64,000 nucleotides of DNA from an uncultured Acidobacteriota bacterium (GTDB lineage: Bacteria > Acidobacteriota > UBA6911 > CAINFC01): contig CAINFC010000311.1 of assembly GCA_903847975.1 (NCBI GenBank), forward strand, positions 62,001-126,000. Direction: 5' to 3'. Under the pieces are notes generated by a model, which was given only the letters and a program-made list of their open reading frames with translations, searched no databases and had not been told where the DNA came from. The position numbers and the translations under genes are program-made. The stretch's first letter is position 1, and every line of letters starts with the position of its first letter. Positions 32,775-42,593 of this stretch are shown one piece after another.

Positions 32775-33752
32775 GTGCAAATTAAAAAAGCGGTAATCAC
32801 GGCCGCAGGGCGCGGCGCCCTGCTGTATCCGGCTTCGGATCCGGTGCAAAAAAGCATGCTGCCGGTTGTGGATCTGGACGGGCGGGTCAAGCCGGTGATG
32901 CAGATCATCGCCGAAGAAGCCCTGGAAAGCGGGATCGAGGAAGTGTGCATTGTCTGCGCTCCCGGCGACCAGGCGGAATACCTGCGCCTTTTTTCCCAGC
33001 GCCGGGATCAGCTGTGGAAGGATGCCGGGGTGGAGCCCTGGGCCCGCGAGCAGGCCGAGCGCCTCGACTTTCTGATCGGGCGGCTGCATTTCACGGTACA
33101 ACAGGAGCCGTGGGGGTACGGCCACGCCGTCTATTGCGCGCACCAGGCAGTGGGCCAGGAACCCTTTCTGCTGCTGCTCGGCGATCACCTCCATATTTCC
33201 CACCGGAAAGACAAGCGCTGCGCACGGCAGCTGCTGGACCTGGCCAGGGCGGAGAGCTGTTCGGTGGCTGCGGTTCAGCCCACCCGCGAGCATCTGGTAG
33301 GGTTGTATGGAACCCTTTCCGGCAAGAGAGTGGCGGACCGCTCCGGGGTGTACCAGATCGAAAAGATCCTGGAAAAGCCTTCGCTCAGCCTGGCGGAGCT
33401 GGAGCTGCAGACCCCCGGCCTCCGGGCCGGCTTTTATTTATGCCTGTTCGGCACCTATGTCCTCTCTCCCCAGATTTTCTCCCTGCTGGAGGAGGAAGTG
33501 GCTAAAGGAGTCGGGGAAGGGAGAACGCTGCTGCTCACCCCGGCCCTGCAGCGCCTGGCCGACCAGGGCAAGTTCCTGGCGATGGAAATTCAGGGGACGC
33601 GGCACGATATCGGCACACGGTACGGACTGCTGCAGGCTCAGATTGCCATGGGTCTGGCCGGAGAAGGGAAGAGCGAGGTCCTGGAGCTGCTCACCGAAAC
33701 CCTGGCCGAAGCTCACCTGCGCAGTGCCGGCGGAGATGGACATGACGACTGA
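32775..33752 (+). CDS. GalU-like nucleotidyltransferase with altered signature
   Basis: A 325-residue relative of UTP-glucose-1-phosphate uridylyltransferase (GalU). It keeps the fold markers KAVITAAG, MLPVVD, EAL-ESGIEEVCIVCAPG, FTVQQEPWGYGHAVYCA, LLGDHLH, EKPS and RHDIGTRYGLLQAQI. The nucleotide-binding signature, however, reads AAGRGALLYPASDPVQKSMLP where relatives have GxGTR(F/L)xPAT...PKxMLP, so the Thr-Arg pair is Ala-Leu and the Pro before Lys is Gln. It starts at GTG 32775 with AGGAGGA upstream and overlaps the next gene by 11 bases. Either a changed substrate, a regulatory subunit, or a failing gene. Confidence 0.8.
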   Translation: MQIKKAVITAAGRGALLYPASDPVQKSMLPVVDLDGRVKPVMQIIAEEALESGIEEVCIVCAPGDQAEYLRLFSQRRDQLWKDAGVEPWAREQAERLDFLIGRLHFTVQQEPWGYGHAVYCAHQAVGQEPFLLLLGDHLHISHRKDKRCARQLLDLARAESCSVAAVQPTREHLVGLYGTLSGKRVADRSGVYQIEKILEKPSLSLAELELQTPGLRAGFYLCLFGTYVLSPQIFSLLEEEVAKGVGEGRTLLLTPALQRLADQGKFLAMEIQGTRHDIGTRYGLLQAQIAMGLAGEGKSEVLELLTETLAEAHLRSAGGDGHDD

Positions 33753-36700
33753 CAACCCGTTCGTAAAGATGATTGTCTGTGCCGATCCGGAGGTCCGGGA
33801 TCAGCCGTTTCTGGAGGTGTGCCTTTCCATGCCTGCCGCCCGGCTGTGGACATCGCTGGAAGAGCTGGAGCAGTTCCGGCATGCGGCCGGAAGCCTATAT
33901 CATCGCGTCCGCGCCTCCCTCTTTCTTTATGCCGCCTACCGGTTCCTGCTGATGGAGTCCCCTTCCATGGCGGCCACCGGAACCATCCCCTACCGCGGGT
34001 TTACCGATATTCTGGAGCGGCGCTTCGAAGAAGCCATTCAATCCTTCCGCCGGGTGCTGCAGCAGAAGGGGCCCGATGCCGCCCTGCTCAGCGCCCTGGC
34101 GGAAAGCTACCACCGGCTGGCCTTCCAGGATCTCCTGGACCAGGTACGACGCAGCGTCCGTTCCAGCCGCGGGAACCAGTGGATGTTTCGCGTCGGGGAC
34201 GAGAGCGAGCACCCGGTGCGGCTGCGGCCGGAACTGCTGCGCCGCGAAGCCGGCAGCCGGTTTTTCCCCATCCTGAAGGAAACCACGCCGGTCCGGCTGG
34301 ACCTGAGTCATAGCGGCTGGTCGGATATTTTCTTTCTGGGAATGGACTATCCGGAAGGGGCCCGGGTTCTGAACATCAGCGTGGATCTGGGAGTGTACGG
34401 GCGGGATGCCGGGGTGCAGCCGCCCATCGAGACCTTTGTCCGGGTGATTCCCGAGAGCTGCCTGAGGCTGACCAGTCTGGATCTTCACCAGACCAAGGAC
34501 ATCACGGAACTTCGGGATCTGTTCAATTTCGGAAACGACTACCTTGGGCTGCTGAAAGCCGGCGTCATCGCCTCCGGCGTTATTCCGCCCTCTTTCGAGG
34601 GCAGCCACAGCCGGCTGCCGCAGATCCTGTCCCGCGTCTGCGGGGCCGATCGGGGCCTGGAGCTGATCACCCGGGTCAACGATATTCCCAAAGGATCGCG
34701 CCTGGCGGTCTCCACCAACCTGCTGGCTTCGATCATCAGCCTGCTGATGAGGGCCACCGGGCAGACCATGGCCCTGGAAGGAATTCACCGGGAGGAGGAG
34801 CGCCGTCTGGTGGCCTCCCGGGCGATTCTGGGAGAATGGATCGGGGGATCCGGCGGAGGCTGGCAGGATTCCGGCGGGGTTTGGCCCGGATTCAAAGTCA
34901 TCTACGGTGTACCGGCTTCCGAGGGCGATCCGGAATTCGGGATCAGCCGCGGATGCCTGCTGCCCCGCCACCGGCTTCTGGGGCCGGAGGATCTGCATCC
35001 GGAAATGAAGGAGAGGCTGGCTGATTCCCTGGTCCTGGTGCACGGTGGAATCGCCCAGAATGTGGGCCCCATCCTGGAGATGGTGACCGAAAAATACCTG
35101 CTGCGGGGCCGGAAGGAGTGGGAGGCCCGACAGGCCATGCGGGGCATCTTTGACCGGATCCTGGATTCGCTGAAGGCCGGGGACGTGCGCCGGCTGGCCG
35201 CGGAAACCACCTTGCATTTCACAAATCCTCTGGCTACGGTGATTCCCTGGGTTACCAACCTGTTTACCGAAACCATCATGCGGCGCGCCCGGCAGAAACT
35301 GGGCCAGGACTACTGGGGCTTTCTCATGCTGGGTGGCATGTCCGGAGGCGGCATGGCCATGTTCGTACATCCCGGAAAACGGGATTCCTTCCGGGATGCG
35401 ATTCTCGAAATCATGCACCAGGCTAAAAAAGAGCTGGAAGACGCCTTGCCGTTTGCCATGGAGCCGGTGGTCTATAACTTCCAGGTGAACGAAAACGGCA
35501 CCGCCGCCCGGATGCTGCACGGGGAGGACACCTTTCTTCCCGCGTCTTATTATTCCCTGCATGTTCCCGGCCTTTTGCGCCGCTCCGCCGAACCTGCCCT
35601 GACGCTTCGGCTGGCGGAGGTGGACCGGTTTGCCCGCGGACTCTCCCGGCCCGAAGATGCCTACCGCCTCCTGGGCTCGGTGCTGGGCGGGCTGCTCAGC
35701 GGCTCCGCAGTCACGGAAAGCGCAGTGCGCCGCCGCTGGGAGGAGGAGGTGGTGCGGATACGGCAGGAAAACGGCTTCGATCCGATCCAGCATGAGCGCT
35801 TCCGCGAGGACCTGCACGCCGGAAAAATCGGGCTGGCTCATAACCGCCTGCCGATCGACACGCTGATCGAGGATGTGGCCGAAGAAGACCTGATGCATCT
35901 CACCGGGAAGCCTTCTCTCGTCGAGCGCGGAGAAGAGGCTCTGCGCCAGGGAAGCGTGGCGTCCTTTACCCTGGCTGGCGGAGTCGGGACCCGCTGGACG
36001 ACCGGGGCGGGAGTAATCAAGGCGTTGAATCCCTTTGTCCGCCTGGGAGGAATCCACCGCAGCTTTATGGAAATACACCTGGGCAAGTCCACCTGGACCG
36101 AGCGGCGTTATGCATGCCCGGTCCCTCATCTCATTTCCACCAGCTTTCTGACCCACCAGCCGATTGCCCGCTATCTGGACCGAACCGGCCAGTGCGGCTA
36201 TGCCGGGCCGCTTTACCTCTCACCGGGAAGATCCATCAGCCAGAGACTGGTGCCCATGGTCCGCGACCTGATGTTCCTGTGGGAGGAGATGCCCCAGGAG
36301 ACGCTGGATGAGCAGAAGCAGAAAGTTCGGGAGGCGGTACGCAAAGCGCTGATGGACTGGGCCCGGTCCAAGGGAGAGAGCAGCGACTACACCGACAATC
36401 TGCCCGTTCAACGCTTTAATCCTCCGGGACACTGGTACGAAGTGGCTAATCTGCTGCGCAACGGAGTTCTGGCCCGGCTGCTCGAAGAACGGCCTCAGCT
36501 GGAAACCCTCCTGCTGCACAATATCGATACGCTGGGCGCCAATCTGGATCCGGAAATTCTGGGCGCCCACCTGGCCTCGGGAAACGTCCTGACCTTTGAA
36601 GTCGTACCGCGGAGAATCGAAGATCGGGGGGGCGGGCTGGCCCGGGTAAACGGCCACCTGCGATTGCTGGAGGGCCTGGCCCAGCCGCGCGAAGAGGACG

Positions 36701-37086
36701 AACTGGATCTGCGCTACTACAACACCATGACCACCTGGATCCAGATCGATCCGTTGCTTCAGCTGTTCGGACTGACCCGGAAGGATCTCAACGGGCCCGA
36801 GGACCGCATCGCCTCTGCGGTCCGCAAGCTGGCCCACCGCATGCCGACATACGTTACCATTAAAGATGTGAAGTGGCGATGGGGCCACGGCCAGGAGGAC
36901 GTGTATCCGGTGGCCCAGTTTGAGAAGCTCTGGAGCGACATGAGCGCTCTGCCGGAGATCCGGTGCGGCTTTCTGGCTGTTCCGAGGATGCGCGGGCGAC
37001 AGCTCAAAGACCCCGGTCAGCTGGATGCCTGGGCCAATGACGGAGGAAGGGAGCATGTGGCCGCCTTGTCCGGGTTCGCCGTTTGA
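33742..37086 (+). CDS. Bifunctional fucokinase-like GHMP kinase / UDPGP-family sugar-nucleotide pyrophosphorylase fusion
   Basis: 1,114 residues, uninterrupted. Residues 1-180 are helical with TPR-like character (LERRFEEAIQSFRRVLQQKG) and no recognised motif. Residues ~180-600 resemble the L-fucokinase branch of GHMP kinases: VRLDLSHSGWSD (191-195), PKGSRLAVSTNLLAS (316-330), GGGWQDSGG (371-379) and LGGMSGGGMAMF (530-541). Residues ~735-1060 are a UDPGP pyrophosphorylase: LAGGVGTRW (744-752), VIKALNPF (K760), NPPGHWYE, HNIDTLGANLDPEILG (926-941, Asp929), EVVPRRIEDRGGG and YYNTMTTWI. The predicted route is sugar, sugar-1-phosphate, then NDP-sugar. ATG 33742 is chosen because GGAG lies six bases upstream; the ORF reads open back to 33307 in the wrong frame of the previous gene. 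Sugar and nucleotide are unknown. Confidence 0.85.
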   Translation: MTTDNPFVKMIVCADPEVRDQPFLEVCLSMPAARLWTSLEELEQFRHAAGSLYHRVRASLFLYAAYRFLLMESPSMAATGTIPYRGFTDILERRFEEAIQSFRRVLQQKGPDAALLSALAESYHRLAFQDLLDQVRRSVRSSRGNQWMFRVGDESEHPVRLRPELLRREAGSRFFPILKETTPVRLDLSHSGWSDIFFLGMDYPEGARVLNISVDLGVYGRDAGVQPPIETFVRVIPESCLRLTSLDLHQTKDITELRDLFNFGNDYLGLLKAGVIASGVIPPSFEGSHSRLPQILSRVCGADRGLELITRVNDIPKGSRLAVSTNLLASIISLLMRATGQTMALEGIHREEERRLVASRAILGEWIGGSGGGWQDSGGVWPGFKVIYGVPASEGDPEFGISRGCLLPRHRLLGPEDLHPEMKERLADSLVLVHGGIAQNVGPILEMVTEKYLLRGRKEWEARQAMRGIFDRILDSLKAGDVRRLAAETTLHFTNPLATVIPWVTNLFTETIMRRARQKLGQDYWGFLMLGGMSGGGMAMFVHPGKRDSFRDAILEIMHQAKKELEDALPFAMEPVVYNFQVNENGTAARMLHGEDTFLPASYYSLHVPGLLRRSAEPALTLRLAEVDRFARGLSRPEDAYRLLGSVLGGLLSGSAVTESAVRRRWEEEVVRIRQENGFDPIQHERFREDLHAGKIGLAHNRLPIDTLIEDVAEEDLMHLTGKPSLVERGEEALRQGSVASFTLAGGVGTRWTTGAGVIKALNPFVRLGGIHRSFMEIHLGKSTWTERRYACPVPHLISTSFLTHQPIARYLDRTGQCGYAGPLYLSPGRSISQRLVPMVRDLMFLWEEMPQETLDEQKQKVREAVRKALMDWARSKGESSDYTDNLPVQRFNPPGHWYEVANLLRNGVLARLLEERPQLETLLLHNIDTLGANLDPEILGAHLASGNVLTFEVVPRRIEDRGGGLARVNGHLRLLEGLAQPREEDELDLRYYNTMTTWIQIDPLLQLFGLTRKDLNGPEDRIASAVRKLAHRMPTYVTIKDVKWRWGHGQEDVYPVAQFEKLWSDMSALPEIRCGFLAVPRMRGRQLKDPGQLDAWANDGGREHVAALSGFAV

Positions 37087-37110: not shown

Positions 37111-37983
37111 ATGCGGTTCCTTAAAGCGCAGGCCAACGGCAACGATTACCTGGTGGCGATGACCGGCGCGTCCGGCATGTCCGCCGCCGGGCTGGGAGCC
37201 CGTGCTGCGCGGATGTGCGACAGGCACTTCGGCGTCGGCTCGGACGGCATCGTTTTCCTGTCCCGGGGCGAAGGAAGCAGCCCTTCCGGCTGGGAGGCCC
37301 GTATTTTCAACCCGGACGGCGGAGAGGCGGAAGTGTCCGGAAACGGCCTGCGCTGCGCCGCCGCGGGGATCGGCTTTCTCGAGCCGCATCGCTCGGAGGA
37401 AATCCGCATCCGGACCTCCTCCGGGGAAAAAACATTCCGCCGCCTGGAGAGAAGAGGAAACCGTTTCCGATTTGAAGCCGACATGGGCTGCCCGGCCTTC
37501 GAGCCGGACCGGATTCCCATGCGTACGGCGGAGCGCCTGGAAAAGGCCCTGGGATACCCGCTGGCAGTCGAAGGGCGTATTTTTCCGGTGACCGCGCTTT
37601 CCATCGGCAATCCCCATTGCGTGATCTTCGGCCGGGTGGCGGAAGAAGCCGACTGGCCGCGCTGGTCCTCGCTGATTTCCGGGCACGAGGCTTTTCCGAA
37701 CCGGACCAATGTGGAATGGGTGGAGATCCTGGGCCCGGATCGGATTCGCGTCTCCTTCTGGGAGCGCGGGGTCGGGCCCACGCTTTCCTCGGGAAGCGGC
37801 AGCTGTGCCGCGGCAATTGCCGGCATTCTGGCCGGGATGACCACAGAAAGGGTAACGGTAAGCAGTGAAGGGGGCGATCTGGCCGTCGAGTGGCGCGACC
37901 GGAAAAAGATATTCCTGACCGGCGAGGCGGAGCTTGTTTTTGAGGGCAGGTGCCTTGGGGCGGAGGGCGACGATGACCGCTGA
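37111..37983 (+). CDS. dapF: Diaminopimelate epimerase-family protein with Ser in place of both catalytic Cys
   Basis: A 290-residue member of the DapF fold, which interconverts LL- and meso-diaminopimelate for lysine and peptidoglycan. It keeps KAQANGNDYLV, HFGVGSDGIVFL, IFNPDGGEAE, GNGLRC, IGNPHCV, FPNRTNVEWVEIL and ERGVGPTLSSGSGSCAA. The two catalytic positions are changed: the residue before GNG is Ser76 (Cys73 in the H. influenzae enzyme) and the residue in the final loop is Ser227 (Cys217). Start at ATG 37111 (MRFLKAQ, AGGGGA upstream); a GTG 6 codons earlier is open. No other lysine genes nearby. Either a serine-using lineage of true DapF, or a sister epimerase/isomerase. Confidence 0.8.
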   Translation: MRFLKAQANGNDYLVAMTGASGMSAAGLGARAARMCDRHFGVGSDGIVFLSRGEGSSPSGWEARIFNPDGGEAEVSGNGLRCAAAGIGFLEPHRSEEIRIRTSSGEKTFRRLERRGNRFRFEADMGCPAFEPDRIPMRTAERLEKALGYPLAVEGRIFPVTALSIGNPHCVIFGRVAEEADWPRWSSLISGHEAFPNRTNVEWVEILGPDRIRVSFWERGVGPTLSSGSGSCAAAIAGILAGMTTERVTVSSEGGDLAVEWRDRKKIFLTGEAELVFEGRCLGAEGDDDR

Positions 37984-39121
37984 GCAGATTCTATCCTTCT
38001 GCCGGAGCTCCCGGGAATGGGCCGTGGATTGTCTCGCGGAAATGGTCCGCAGGGAATCGCCCACCCGGGATCCGGACGCCGTCAACCGGCTGGGGGAATT
38101 TCTGACCGGCCTGTTCCGGCAGCAGGACTGCCTCCTGGAGGCGGTCCATCCGGCGGAGCGCGGCGCTCATCTGTTCGGATGGGGTACGGGAAGTGTTTCC
38201 TGCGCGGACAGGCAGCCGGTCCTTCTGCTGGGGCACATGGATACGGTCTGGCCGGTTGGAACGCTGCAGAGCATGCCCCTCCGCCGCGAAGGGGACCGCC
38301 TCTACGGGCCGGGAATTTTCGATATGAAGGCCGGCCTGCTGCTCATGCTGTTCGTCGCCCGGGCGGTACGGGAAAGGGTTTTTCTTCCTCGAAGCCCGTG
38401 GAAAATATTAATCATGGCCGATGAGGAAGCCAGCGCTCCGGAGTCCAGAAACGTCATCGAGGAGCAGGCCCGGGACTGCCGTTACGTGCTTTGCCTGGAG
38501 CCGCCTCTTTCCGGCAACCGCGCCAAGACGGCCCGCAAGGGATCCTGTCGCTTTCTTCTGGAAATCCTCGGGCGGGCGGCGCACGCCGGCGTGAACCATG
38601 CCGACGGAGTCAGCGCCGTCGAGGAGCTCGCCCACCAGGTGCTGCGGCTGCAGGCCATGACCGATTATGCGCGGGGTACCACGGTCAGCGTGGGCACGGT
38701 CCACACCCGCAATGCGGCCAACGTGATTCCCGATTATGCGGTGGCGGAAATCGATGTCCGGGCCGCGAGCCGGGCCGAGGCGGACCGGGTGATCGGGCAG
38801 ATTCATGCGCTGGCGCCGGTCCTGGACGGGGCGCGGCTGAAGGTCACCGACGGAATCCGGCGTCCGCCGCTGGAGCGGACCGACGGGGTGGCCGCTCTCT
38901 ACCGGTCGGCAGCCTGCCGGGCCCGGGAGCTCGGATTTGAGCTGGGAGAAGGTTCCAGCGGAGGCAGCAGCGACGGAGCCTTCACCGCCGCTTTGGGGAT
39001 TCCCACGCTGGATGGCATGGGAGTGGAAGGCGACGGCCTCCATGCCGAGCATGAGCATGTTTGCGTTTCGGATATCGCGCCCAAGGCGGCGCTGATAATG
39101 AGGATCCTGCAGGAATATTGA
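37973..39121 (+). CDS. M20-family metallopeptidase (glutamate carboxypeptidase type)
   Basis: A 382-residue zinc peptidase close to carboxypeptidase G2. Metal ligands: LLGHMDTVWPVGT (His and the following Asp), IFDMKAGLLLML (bridging Asp), ADEEASAPESR (catalytic and bridging Glu), and the late GGSSDGAFTAALGIPTLDGMGVEGDGLHAEHEHV with the last His. A dimerisation domain sits in between (VNHADGVSAVEELAHQVL). ATG 37973 has GGAGGG upstream and overlaps dapF by 11 bases, so the two are coupled. It could trim amino acids from peptides or folate-like compounds. No signal peptide. Confidence 0.9.
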   Translation: MTAEQILSFCRSSREWAVDCLAEMVRRESPTRDPDAVNRLGEFLTGLFRQQDCLLEAVHPAERGAHLFGWGTGSVSCADRQPVLLLGHMDTVWPVGTLQSMPLRREGDRLYGPGIFDMKAGLLLMLFVARAVRERVFLPRSPWKILIMADEEASAPESRNVIEEQARDCRYVLCLEPPLSGNRAKTARKGSCRFLLEILGRAAHAGVNHADGVSAVEELAHQVLRLQAMTDYARGTTVSVGTVHTRNAANVIPDYAVAEIDVRAASRAEADRVIGQIHALAPVLDGARLKVTDGIRRPPLERTDGVAALYRSAACRARELGFELGEGSSGGSSDGAFTAALGIPTLDGMGVEGDGLHAEHEHVCVSDIAPKAALIMRILQEY

Positions 39122-40729: not shown

Positions 40730-40760
40730 TCTGTAAAAAACCACAACAAGGAGCATGCCA

Positions 40761-42593
40761 ATGAGAACGCCTGTTCTGGAACGAATGGCGCAAAAGCCGC
40801 AGGTTTTCGACGGGGCCATGGGAACCATGATTTATTCCCGGGGCGTTTTTCTGAATGCCTGCTATGATGAGCTTTGTCTCTCCAATCCGGACTTGATCCT
40901 GGGGATTCATCGGGAGTATGCCGGCGCCTTTGCCGACATCCTGGAGACCAACAGCTTCGGAGCCAACCGCATCAAGCTGCGGGCCTACGGACTGGCGGAC
41001 AAGGTGGCCGATATCAACCGTGCCGCCGTGCGGCTGGCCCGCAGCGCTGCAGGAGAGGAGCTTTACGTGGCGGGCTCCGTGGGGCCCTGCCTGAAGCCCG
41101 GCCAGATTCTGTCCGCGGAAAACGAGAAGGAATTGCGGGCGGCGTTCGAAGAGCAGGTCGGCGTCCTGACTTCCGAAGGCGCCGACTTTTTAATCCTGGA
41201 AACCTTCCATGACCTGCAGGAGCTGCTGCTGGCGGTCGGCGTGGCCGGCCGGTTTGACGTGCCGCTGTTCGCCTCCTTCATGGTGAACGAAAAAGGGGAG
41301 ACCGCCCACGGCACATCCATCGAGCAGATGGTCTCGGCACTGGATGCCGAGCCCGGAGTGCACGCCGTGGGGATCAACTGCGGCGTGGGCCTGGCGCCCA
41401 CCTTCGACATGCTGGAAAGAGCCATGCCGATCGTCAAGAAGCCCTTCTTCGTGATGCCCAATGCGGGGCTTCCCCGGCAGGTCGAGGGACGGATGCTCTA
41501 TTTGAACAACCCGGAGTATTTCACCGAGTACTGCAAGAAATTCATTGAGATGGGGGTTCGCGCCGTCGGAGGCTGCTGCGGGACCACGCCGGAGCACATC
41601 CGCATGGCCGCCAAAGCGGTCAAGGCGCTGAGCGGGGTTAAAAAACATATTGAAATCCGGGCCTATCCTGCGGAAGCCGCAGCGAGCCAGGAGGTCATTC
41701 CGCCGAACAAGCGCTCCCGGTTCGCCGCCCGGCTGCTGGGGGGCAAAAGGGTTACCACGGTGGAGCTGCTTCCTCCGAAATCCTCCGACATGAGCCAGCT
41801 GCTGGAGCGCGCCCGGGAGTGCCATCTGGCCGGCGTCGATGCCATAAACATTCCGGACGGACCCCGGGCCAGCGCGCGGATATCGCCGATGATTTCCGCC
41901 ATAGCCATTCGCGAGCGGGTCGGAATCGAGCCGATCCTGCACTACTGTTGCCGGGATCGGAATCTGATCGGCATGCAGTCCGACCTGCTGGGCGGATATG
42001 CGGCGGGACTGACCAATTTTCTGATCATCACCGGCGACCCGCCCAAGCTGGGAGATTATCCGGACGCCACAGGGGTGTTCGACGTGGATGCCATCGGGCT
42101 GACGAAAGTGGTGGCCAACCTGAATCGCGGCCGGGATATCGGCGGTGCGGCAATTGCCCCGGCGACGGGAATCTTCATCGGCGTGGGGGCCAATCCCTGC
42201 GCCGTGGACCGGGAGCGGGAACTCAGCCGCTTTTTTGCCAAAATCGATGCCGGGGCCCAGTTTGCCATCACCCAGCCGGTGTTCGATGCCGAGGAGCTGC
42301 TTCGTTTTCTGGACCGGCTGGCCGGGCACGGGCGCCAGATTCCCATTGTCGCCGGCGTATGGCCCCTGACCAGCCTGAAAAACGCCGAGTTCCTCAAGCA
42401 TGAAGTACCCGGCGTCAAGGTTCCTGACGCGATCATTGAAAGGATGTCCCTGGCCCGCACCAAGGAAGAAGGGGTGCGCACCGGGATCGCCATCGCCAGG
42501 GAAACCTGCGCGCAAATTTCCCCGCACGTCTGCGGCTTCCAGGTGTCGGCCCCCTTCGGACGGGTGGAGATCGCCCTGGAGGTTCTATCCTGA
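40761..42593 (+). CDS. Bifunctional homocysteine S-methyltransferase / methylenetetrahydrofolate reductase
   Basis: Two enzymes of one-carbon metabolism on one chain of 610 residues. The N-terminal ~300 residues are a zinc-dependent Hcy methyltransferase: QVFDGAMGTMIY, ETNSFGANRIKL, the first zinc Cys in GINCGVG and the Cys pair in VGGCCGTTPEHI. Residues ~320-610 are MTHFR: TTVELLPPKS, DAINIPDGPRASARISP, THFLIITGDPPKLGD-type sequence (NFLIITGDPPKLGD), GVGANPCAVD and AQFAITQPVFDAEE. This architecture (YitJ-like) is known in Bacillus and other phyla. Start ATG 40761 has AAGGAG seven bases upstream; an ATG at 40755 is too close to it. No folate or methionine riboswitch fits in the 31-base gap before it. 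Confidence 0.94.
   Translation: MRTPVLERMAQKPQVFDGAMGTMIYSRGVFLNACYDELCLSNPDLILGIHREYAGAFADILETNSFGANRIKLRAYGLADKVADINRAAVRLARSAAGEELYVAGSVGPCLKPGQILSAENEKELRAAFEEQVGVLTSEGADFLILETFHDLQELLLAVGVAGRFDVPLFASFMVNEKGETAHGTSIEQMVSALDAEPGVHAVGINCGVGLAPTFDMLERAMPIVKKPFFVMPNAGLPRQVEGRMLYLNNPEYFTEYCKKFIEMGVRAVGGCCGTTPEHIRMAAKAVKALSGVKKHIEIRAYPAEAAASQEVIPPNKRSRFAARLLGGKRVTTVELLPPKSSDMSQLLERARECHLAGVDAINIPDGPRASARISPMISAIAIRERVGIEPILHYCCRDRNLIGMQSDLLGGYAAGLTNFLIITGDPPKLGDYPDATGVFDVDAIGLTKVVANLNRGRDIGGAAIAPATGIFIGVGANPCAVDRERELSRFFAKIDAGAQFAITQPVFDAEELLRFLDRLAGHGRQIPIVAGVWPLTSLKNAEFLKHEVPGVKVPDAIIERMSLARTKEEGVRTGIAIARETCAQISPHVCGFQVSAPFGRVEIALEVLS

Follow-up and report, generated by a model that had tools for sequence, protein, structure and literature searches.

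A DapF homologue encoded in the window (the whole 64,000-nucleotide stretch of acidobacterial DNA that was analysed) has serine at both of the positions occupied by catalytic cysteines in the known enzyme, and the same Ser/Ser form is present in all of the approximately 164 genomes of the host phylum (Acidobacteriota) whose gene of the matching group was read. The two-thiol rule of DapF probably fails, then, across a whole bacterial lineage. DapF is the model two-thiol racemase, a drug target and an enzyme of both cell-wall and lysine synthesis; enzymes of its fold use one residue to remove the alpha proton from one face of the substrate and a second to supply a proton on the other. No description of a Ser/Ser DapF was found in the open-licence literature searched, and within that literature the form is apparently undescribed so far.

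The Ser/Ser gene, its product and its neighbours

The ORF at 37111–37983 (+ strand) is intact from ATG to TGA and encodes 290 amino acids; its local G+C fraction of 0.65 is similar to that of neighbouring sequence. DAP_epimerase (134.8 bits) is the sole Pfam family matched by the product, and the score of 213.4 bits against NCBIfam TIGR00652 is above the curated cut-off of 114.65 bits for that model, which is also matched by the other 38 rows of our alignment (A1). Ser76 is encoded by tcc (37336–37338, +) within the motif EVSGNGLRC, directly before a predicted helix at residues 77–90, and Ser227 by tcg (37789–37791, +) within TLSSGSGSC, directly before a predicted helix at 228–240. The original prediction had placed the two serines before GNGLRC and in TLSSGSGSC respectively, which the codons confirm in full, and alignment to solved DapFs bears out its further claim that they fall on the catalytic residues Cys73 and Cys217 of Haemophilus influenzae DapF. 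Crystal structures of the C73S and C217S forms of the H. influenzae enzyme are among the matches of the window protein. The PROSITE DapF signature, N-x-[DN]-[GS]-[SENGFT]-x(4)-C-[GI]-N-[GA]-x-R (as quoted in PMC8225329), is not matched, since the corresponding segment, NPDGGEAEVSGNGLR, fits every element but the Cys. Because the two cysteines expected of a DapF are both serines here, we do not call the protein a canonical DapF but place it in the DapF fold family as a Ser/Ser variant.

An AlphaFold2 model built from 39 sequences (pLDDT 92.3) has the DapF fold. The predicted helices begin at residues 77 and 228, so that Ser76 and Ser227 each cap a helix in the manner of the canonical cysteines. 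The best PDB match of the model is 9mro_A, the complex of a cyanobacterial DapF and a DAP analogue (TM 0.89, 2.1 Å), followed by Arabidopsis DapF with LL-aziDAP, and the structures nearest to it are DapFs holding DAP analogues (2.1–2.4 Å). Canonical DapFs (TIGR00652/PF01678), such as those of H. influenzae and Corynebacterium glutamicum and the cyanobacterial 9mro, share with the window protein their fold, length, DAP-binding side chains and GNG and ERGxGxT motifs, and are likewise found in genomes with LysA and a DAP-type MurE; they differ in having two catalytic cysteines where the window protein has serines, and in having the signature Cys that it lacks.

Serine is known at one catalytic position in more distant relatives of the proline racemase superfamily, a Ser/Cys 4-hydroxyproline 2-epimerase (B9JQV3) and a Ser/Thr trans-3-hydroxyproline dehydratase (B9K4G4) (PMC4113996). 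These have the same overall fold (the model matches 4lb0 and 4k7g), but they act on proline-type substrates, pair their one serine with Cys or Thr and are only 11–14 % identical to the window protein. Membership of the proline racemase subfamily (4HypE/t3HypD) was considered and rejected: Pfam reports DAP_epimerase only, and matches to the proline racemase fold rank far below those to DapF. The engineered H. influenzae mutants C73S and C217S (2q9h and 2q9j) are close structural matches and carry the same substitutions singly; they are, however, laboratory mutants with hindered catalysis, whereas the natural protein carries both serines, conserved across the phylum. The cofactor-independent enzymes PddB, HisR/CntK and O-ureidoserine racemase share the DapF fold and a two-base mechanism, but all are Cys/Cys.

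An M20-family metallopeptidase ORF (37974–39121, +) follows; its probable start codon, the ATG at 37974, lies just inside the 3' end of dapF (cgatgaccgctga at the junction), so that the two genes are probably co-translated. The best match of the metallopeptidase is to glutamate-carboxypeptidase-like models, and it scores far under the DapE cut-offs; it is a neighbour and is not counted as part of the epimerase mechanism. No gene neighbourhood around the Ser/Ser gene was common to many loci. On the other side of dapF lies an ORF of 1259 amino acids (33307–37086, +) that matches UTP-glucose-1-phosphate uridylyltransferase and, weakly, a bifunctional fucokinase/fucose-1-phosphate guanylyltransferase; the translation is odd at the beginning, where the true start may lie later or the frame may be wrong. 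The ORF at 40755–42593 (+) corresponds to a bifunctional homocysteine S-methyltransferase/methylenetetrahydrofolate reductase (PRK08645, 696 bits, cut-off 453).

Distribution and conservation in the phylum

The genome from which the window derives (G000; 8.13 Mb, 99 % complete) has its nearest relatives in the genome search at class level, with none closer. All 19 same-class loci of the matching DapF clade (L002–L020) are Ser/Ser; most of the remaining same-class loci that were read, which come from a single genus, have a distant DapF clade with Cys at both positions. At least 150 of 396 genomes of the phylum have a match at an E-value of 1.2e-43 or better. The sequences read comprised 40 loci with flanks from across the phylum, several weaker loci found with Pfam, and 93 further sequences, and every member of the Ser/Ser group among them has both serines; identity to the window protein is about 34–50 %, and Ala, Gly or Thr never occurs at either catalytic position in the approximately 164 phylum sequences of this group. 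The original prediction had asked for alignment with DapFs of the phylum and had named a common Ser/Ser form, together with successful complementation, as the outcome that would refute it; of these two, a Ser/Ser form common in the phylum is what was observed. The 19, 40 and 93 Ser/Ser sequences rule out a sequencing error or an oddity of one genome, and what stands in place of a single-genome peculiarity is a lineage-wide variant. Among the plasmid matches listed, none reaches 36 % identity to the window protein and none is a close relative.

A second, distant DapF clade, which is Cys/Cys, occurs elsewhere in the phylum. Both kinds are present together in two members of a single family (f30), G092 (L107/L290) and G356 (L108/L292) each combining a Ser/Ser DapF with a divergent Cys/Cys DapF-like gene. 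The main Ser/Ser sequences cluster in a tree computed after both catalytic columns had been masked. A single Ser/Ser clade that leaves out one sequence, L148 (from G038), agrees fully with the data (p-AU 0.63), and one that includes it fits more poorly without being rejected (p-AU 0.17). L148 is Ser/Ser, but its motifs place it in the second, distant DapF clade, to which the Cys/Ser form L125 (from G043) also belongs; these two may represent a second origin. One-sided forms are also seen in four Chloroflexota sequences of Dehalococcoidia type (L042, L045, L050 and L051), which have Ser first and Cys second (EVSGNGLRC ... LACGSG).

Conservation was assessed in 72 non-identical Ser/Ser sequences and compared with the 41 nearest Cys/Cys DapFs, and no positions separate the two sets more strongly than 76 and 227. 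DAP is held in C. glutamicum DapF by the side chains of Asn74, Asn85, Asn159, Asn194, Glu212 and Arg213 (PMC5296763). The corresponding residues of the window protein, Asn67, Asn78, Asn167, Asn200, Glu218 and Arg219, are conserved in 100 % of the 72 sequences, and the invariant positions also include Asn11, Ser76 and Ser227. Both serines are likewise present in 93/93 of the further sequences, in which Asn78 is replaced in five (four times by Asp, once by Ser) and Arg219 in one. Ser76 is encoded by TCN in 65 of the 72 sequences and by AGC in seven, a mixture that could reflect either long retention of serine or repeated origin.

The DAP pathway in genomes with the Ser/Ser gene

The window gene is the single PF01678 (DapF-family) gene of its genome; the second dapF for which the original prediction proposed to search is not there, which excludes a second, normal DapF, and in most genomes bearing a Ser/Ser gene it is the only family member. 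Replacement by meso-DAP dehydrogenase (Ddh) was also rejected, as none of 32 genomes, this one included, had a match that scored above the cut-off. LysA is present in G000 (451.7 bits) and in most Ser/Ser genomes. The G000 MurE carries TSDNPR, with the DAP-type DNPR motif, and this motif is found in 30/30 MurE loci read, ruling out a Lys-type wall; DNPR does not distinguish between LL-DAP and meso-DAP. With LysA and a DAP-type MurE but neither a further DapF nor Ddh, G000 would need a DAP epimerase, for which the window gene appears to be the only candidate.

The route to LL-DAP in G000 is incompletely accounted for, because DapB was not found there with PF05173, with a small profile of phylum DapBs, or above the TIGR00036 cut-off. 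The same result was obtained for G002, G193, G174, G221, G042, G038 and G043, making eight of the genomes tested. Several genomes with no recognisable DapB have LysA and a DAP-type MurE, and a divergent or unrelated reductase is suggested for such genomes. No DapL of the TIGR03542 type scored above cut-off for the step from tetrahydrodipicolinate to LL-DAP. A convincing LysA match is absent from G326, G221, G042, G038 and G043, in which MurE keeps DNPR; in Ser/Ser genomes of this kind DAP would serve the wall only.

A proposed two-serine epimerase and the alternatives

We think it fairly probable, from sequence and predicted structure, that the window protein is a working DAP epimerase with a serine/serine acid–base pair. 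Such an enzyme would use the DapF fold to convert LL-DAP to meso-DAP with no catalytic thiols, Ser76 and Ser227 replacing the usual cysteines, each at the N-terminus of one of two helices that face each other. One serine, as the alkoxide, would abstract the alpha proton of DAP, and both the helix dipole and the closing of the two domains over the substrate may make this alkoxide more accessible; the other serine, as the hydroxyl, would return a proton on the opposite face. Glu218, Arg219, Asn67, Asn78, Asn167 and Asn200 would grip both ends of DAP, as in ordinary DapF. Both the epimerization of DAP and the roles of the serines as acid and base are what we infer from the residues and their conservation, the predicted fold and the lack of a further DapF or a Ddh. 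Use of the serines is a better explanation than loss of function, because serine is strictly retained and never replaced by Ala or Thr in a sole, presumably essential enzyme.

The low activity of Cys-to-Ser mutants, the basicity of serine and the missing DapB all count against a Ser/Ser epimerase. Single Cys-to-Ser mutants of PddB keep less than about 0.1 % activity (PMC8225329), as do those of Mt-DapF as cited in that paper, and the activity of HisR is nearly abolished or greatly reduced by such changes (PMC11602996). Serine is a poorer base than cysteine, and the preference for cysteine has been explained in a review (PMC8142540); a natural Ser/Ser racemase was not found in the open-licence literature searched. 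In these mutants, however, the serine is placed in an active site adapted to thiol chemistry.

The original prediction had offered either serine chemistry or a different substrate, and of these we favour the former. A different substrate is disfavoured by the complete conservation of the DAP-binding side chains in the 72 sequences and by the position of the gene as sole DapF-family member beside LysA and a DAP-type MurE, with no Ddh. A related reading, which we regard as unlikely, is that the protein binds DAP or a close relative and either serves as a sensor or catalyses some other reaction, for example an elimination or the exchange of a proton on one side only, with meso-DAP supplied by another enzyme. 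The Ser/Thr t3HypD does show that a change of catalytic Cys can turn an epimerase into a dehydratase (PMC4113996), Cys-to-Thr cases of such a change have been reviewed (PMC8142540), and some members of the group lack the His beside the active-site Asn (GNPQ, GNPV). Against this, the residues contacting the two ends of DAP are retained, DAP itself lacks a leaving group at C-beta, and most genomes bearing the gene have it as their single DapF-family member, with LysA, a DNPR-type MurE and no Ddh.

It is more doubtful still that meso-DAP is not needed, the wall containing LL-DAP or another diamino acid, lysine being made by another route and the gene being a relic or of minor importance. The failure to find DapB in eight of the genomes tested, G000 included, would agree with this, as would the absence of LysA from a few Ser/Ser genomes (G326, G221 and G042). 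LysA is nevertheless present in most, including G000, the MurE motif is found at every locus read (although it is blind to LL- versus meso-DAP), and the gene, unlike a relic, is intact, with an active site that is nearly invariant over some 160 genomes. That another cysteine replaces the lost thiols, leaving the protein a thiol enzyme, seems very improbable. Cys36 is near-invariant in the Ser/Ser proteins (72/72 and 92/93) and Cys82 is common, but the nearest Cys/Cys enzymes keep Cys36 just as strictly (41/41), so that it is not a replacement, and Cys82, Cys170 and Cys232 are each missing from a share of the Ser/Ser members; no substitute thiol is therefore apparent in the alignments.

Returning to the two-serine epimerase, we put at about even the broader proposition that this is a natural, probably essential amino-acid epimerase with a Ser/Ser pair and no catalytic thiol, which serves as the sole DAP epimerase in much of the phylum and may have evolved more than once. 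Annotation by score only hides this change of catalytic residues across the phylum. The two genomes with both kinds of gene, G092 and G356, offer natural cases for comparing Ser/Ser and Cys/Cys forms within one cell. If the lineage does run DAP epimerization with two serines, the thiol pair is not required for the reaction; neither thiol reagents nor the disulfide switch of C. glutamicum DapF would be expected to affect such an enzyme, which would be a testable case of alpha-proton abstraction by an alcohol.
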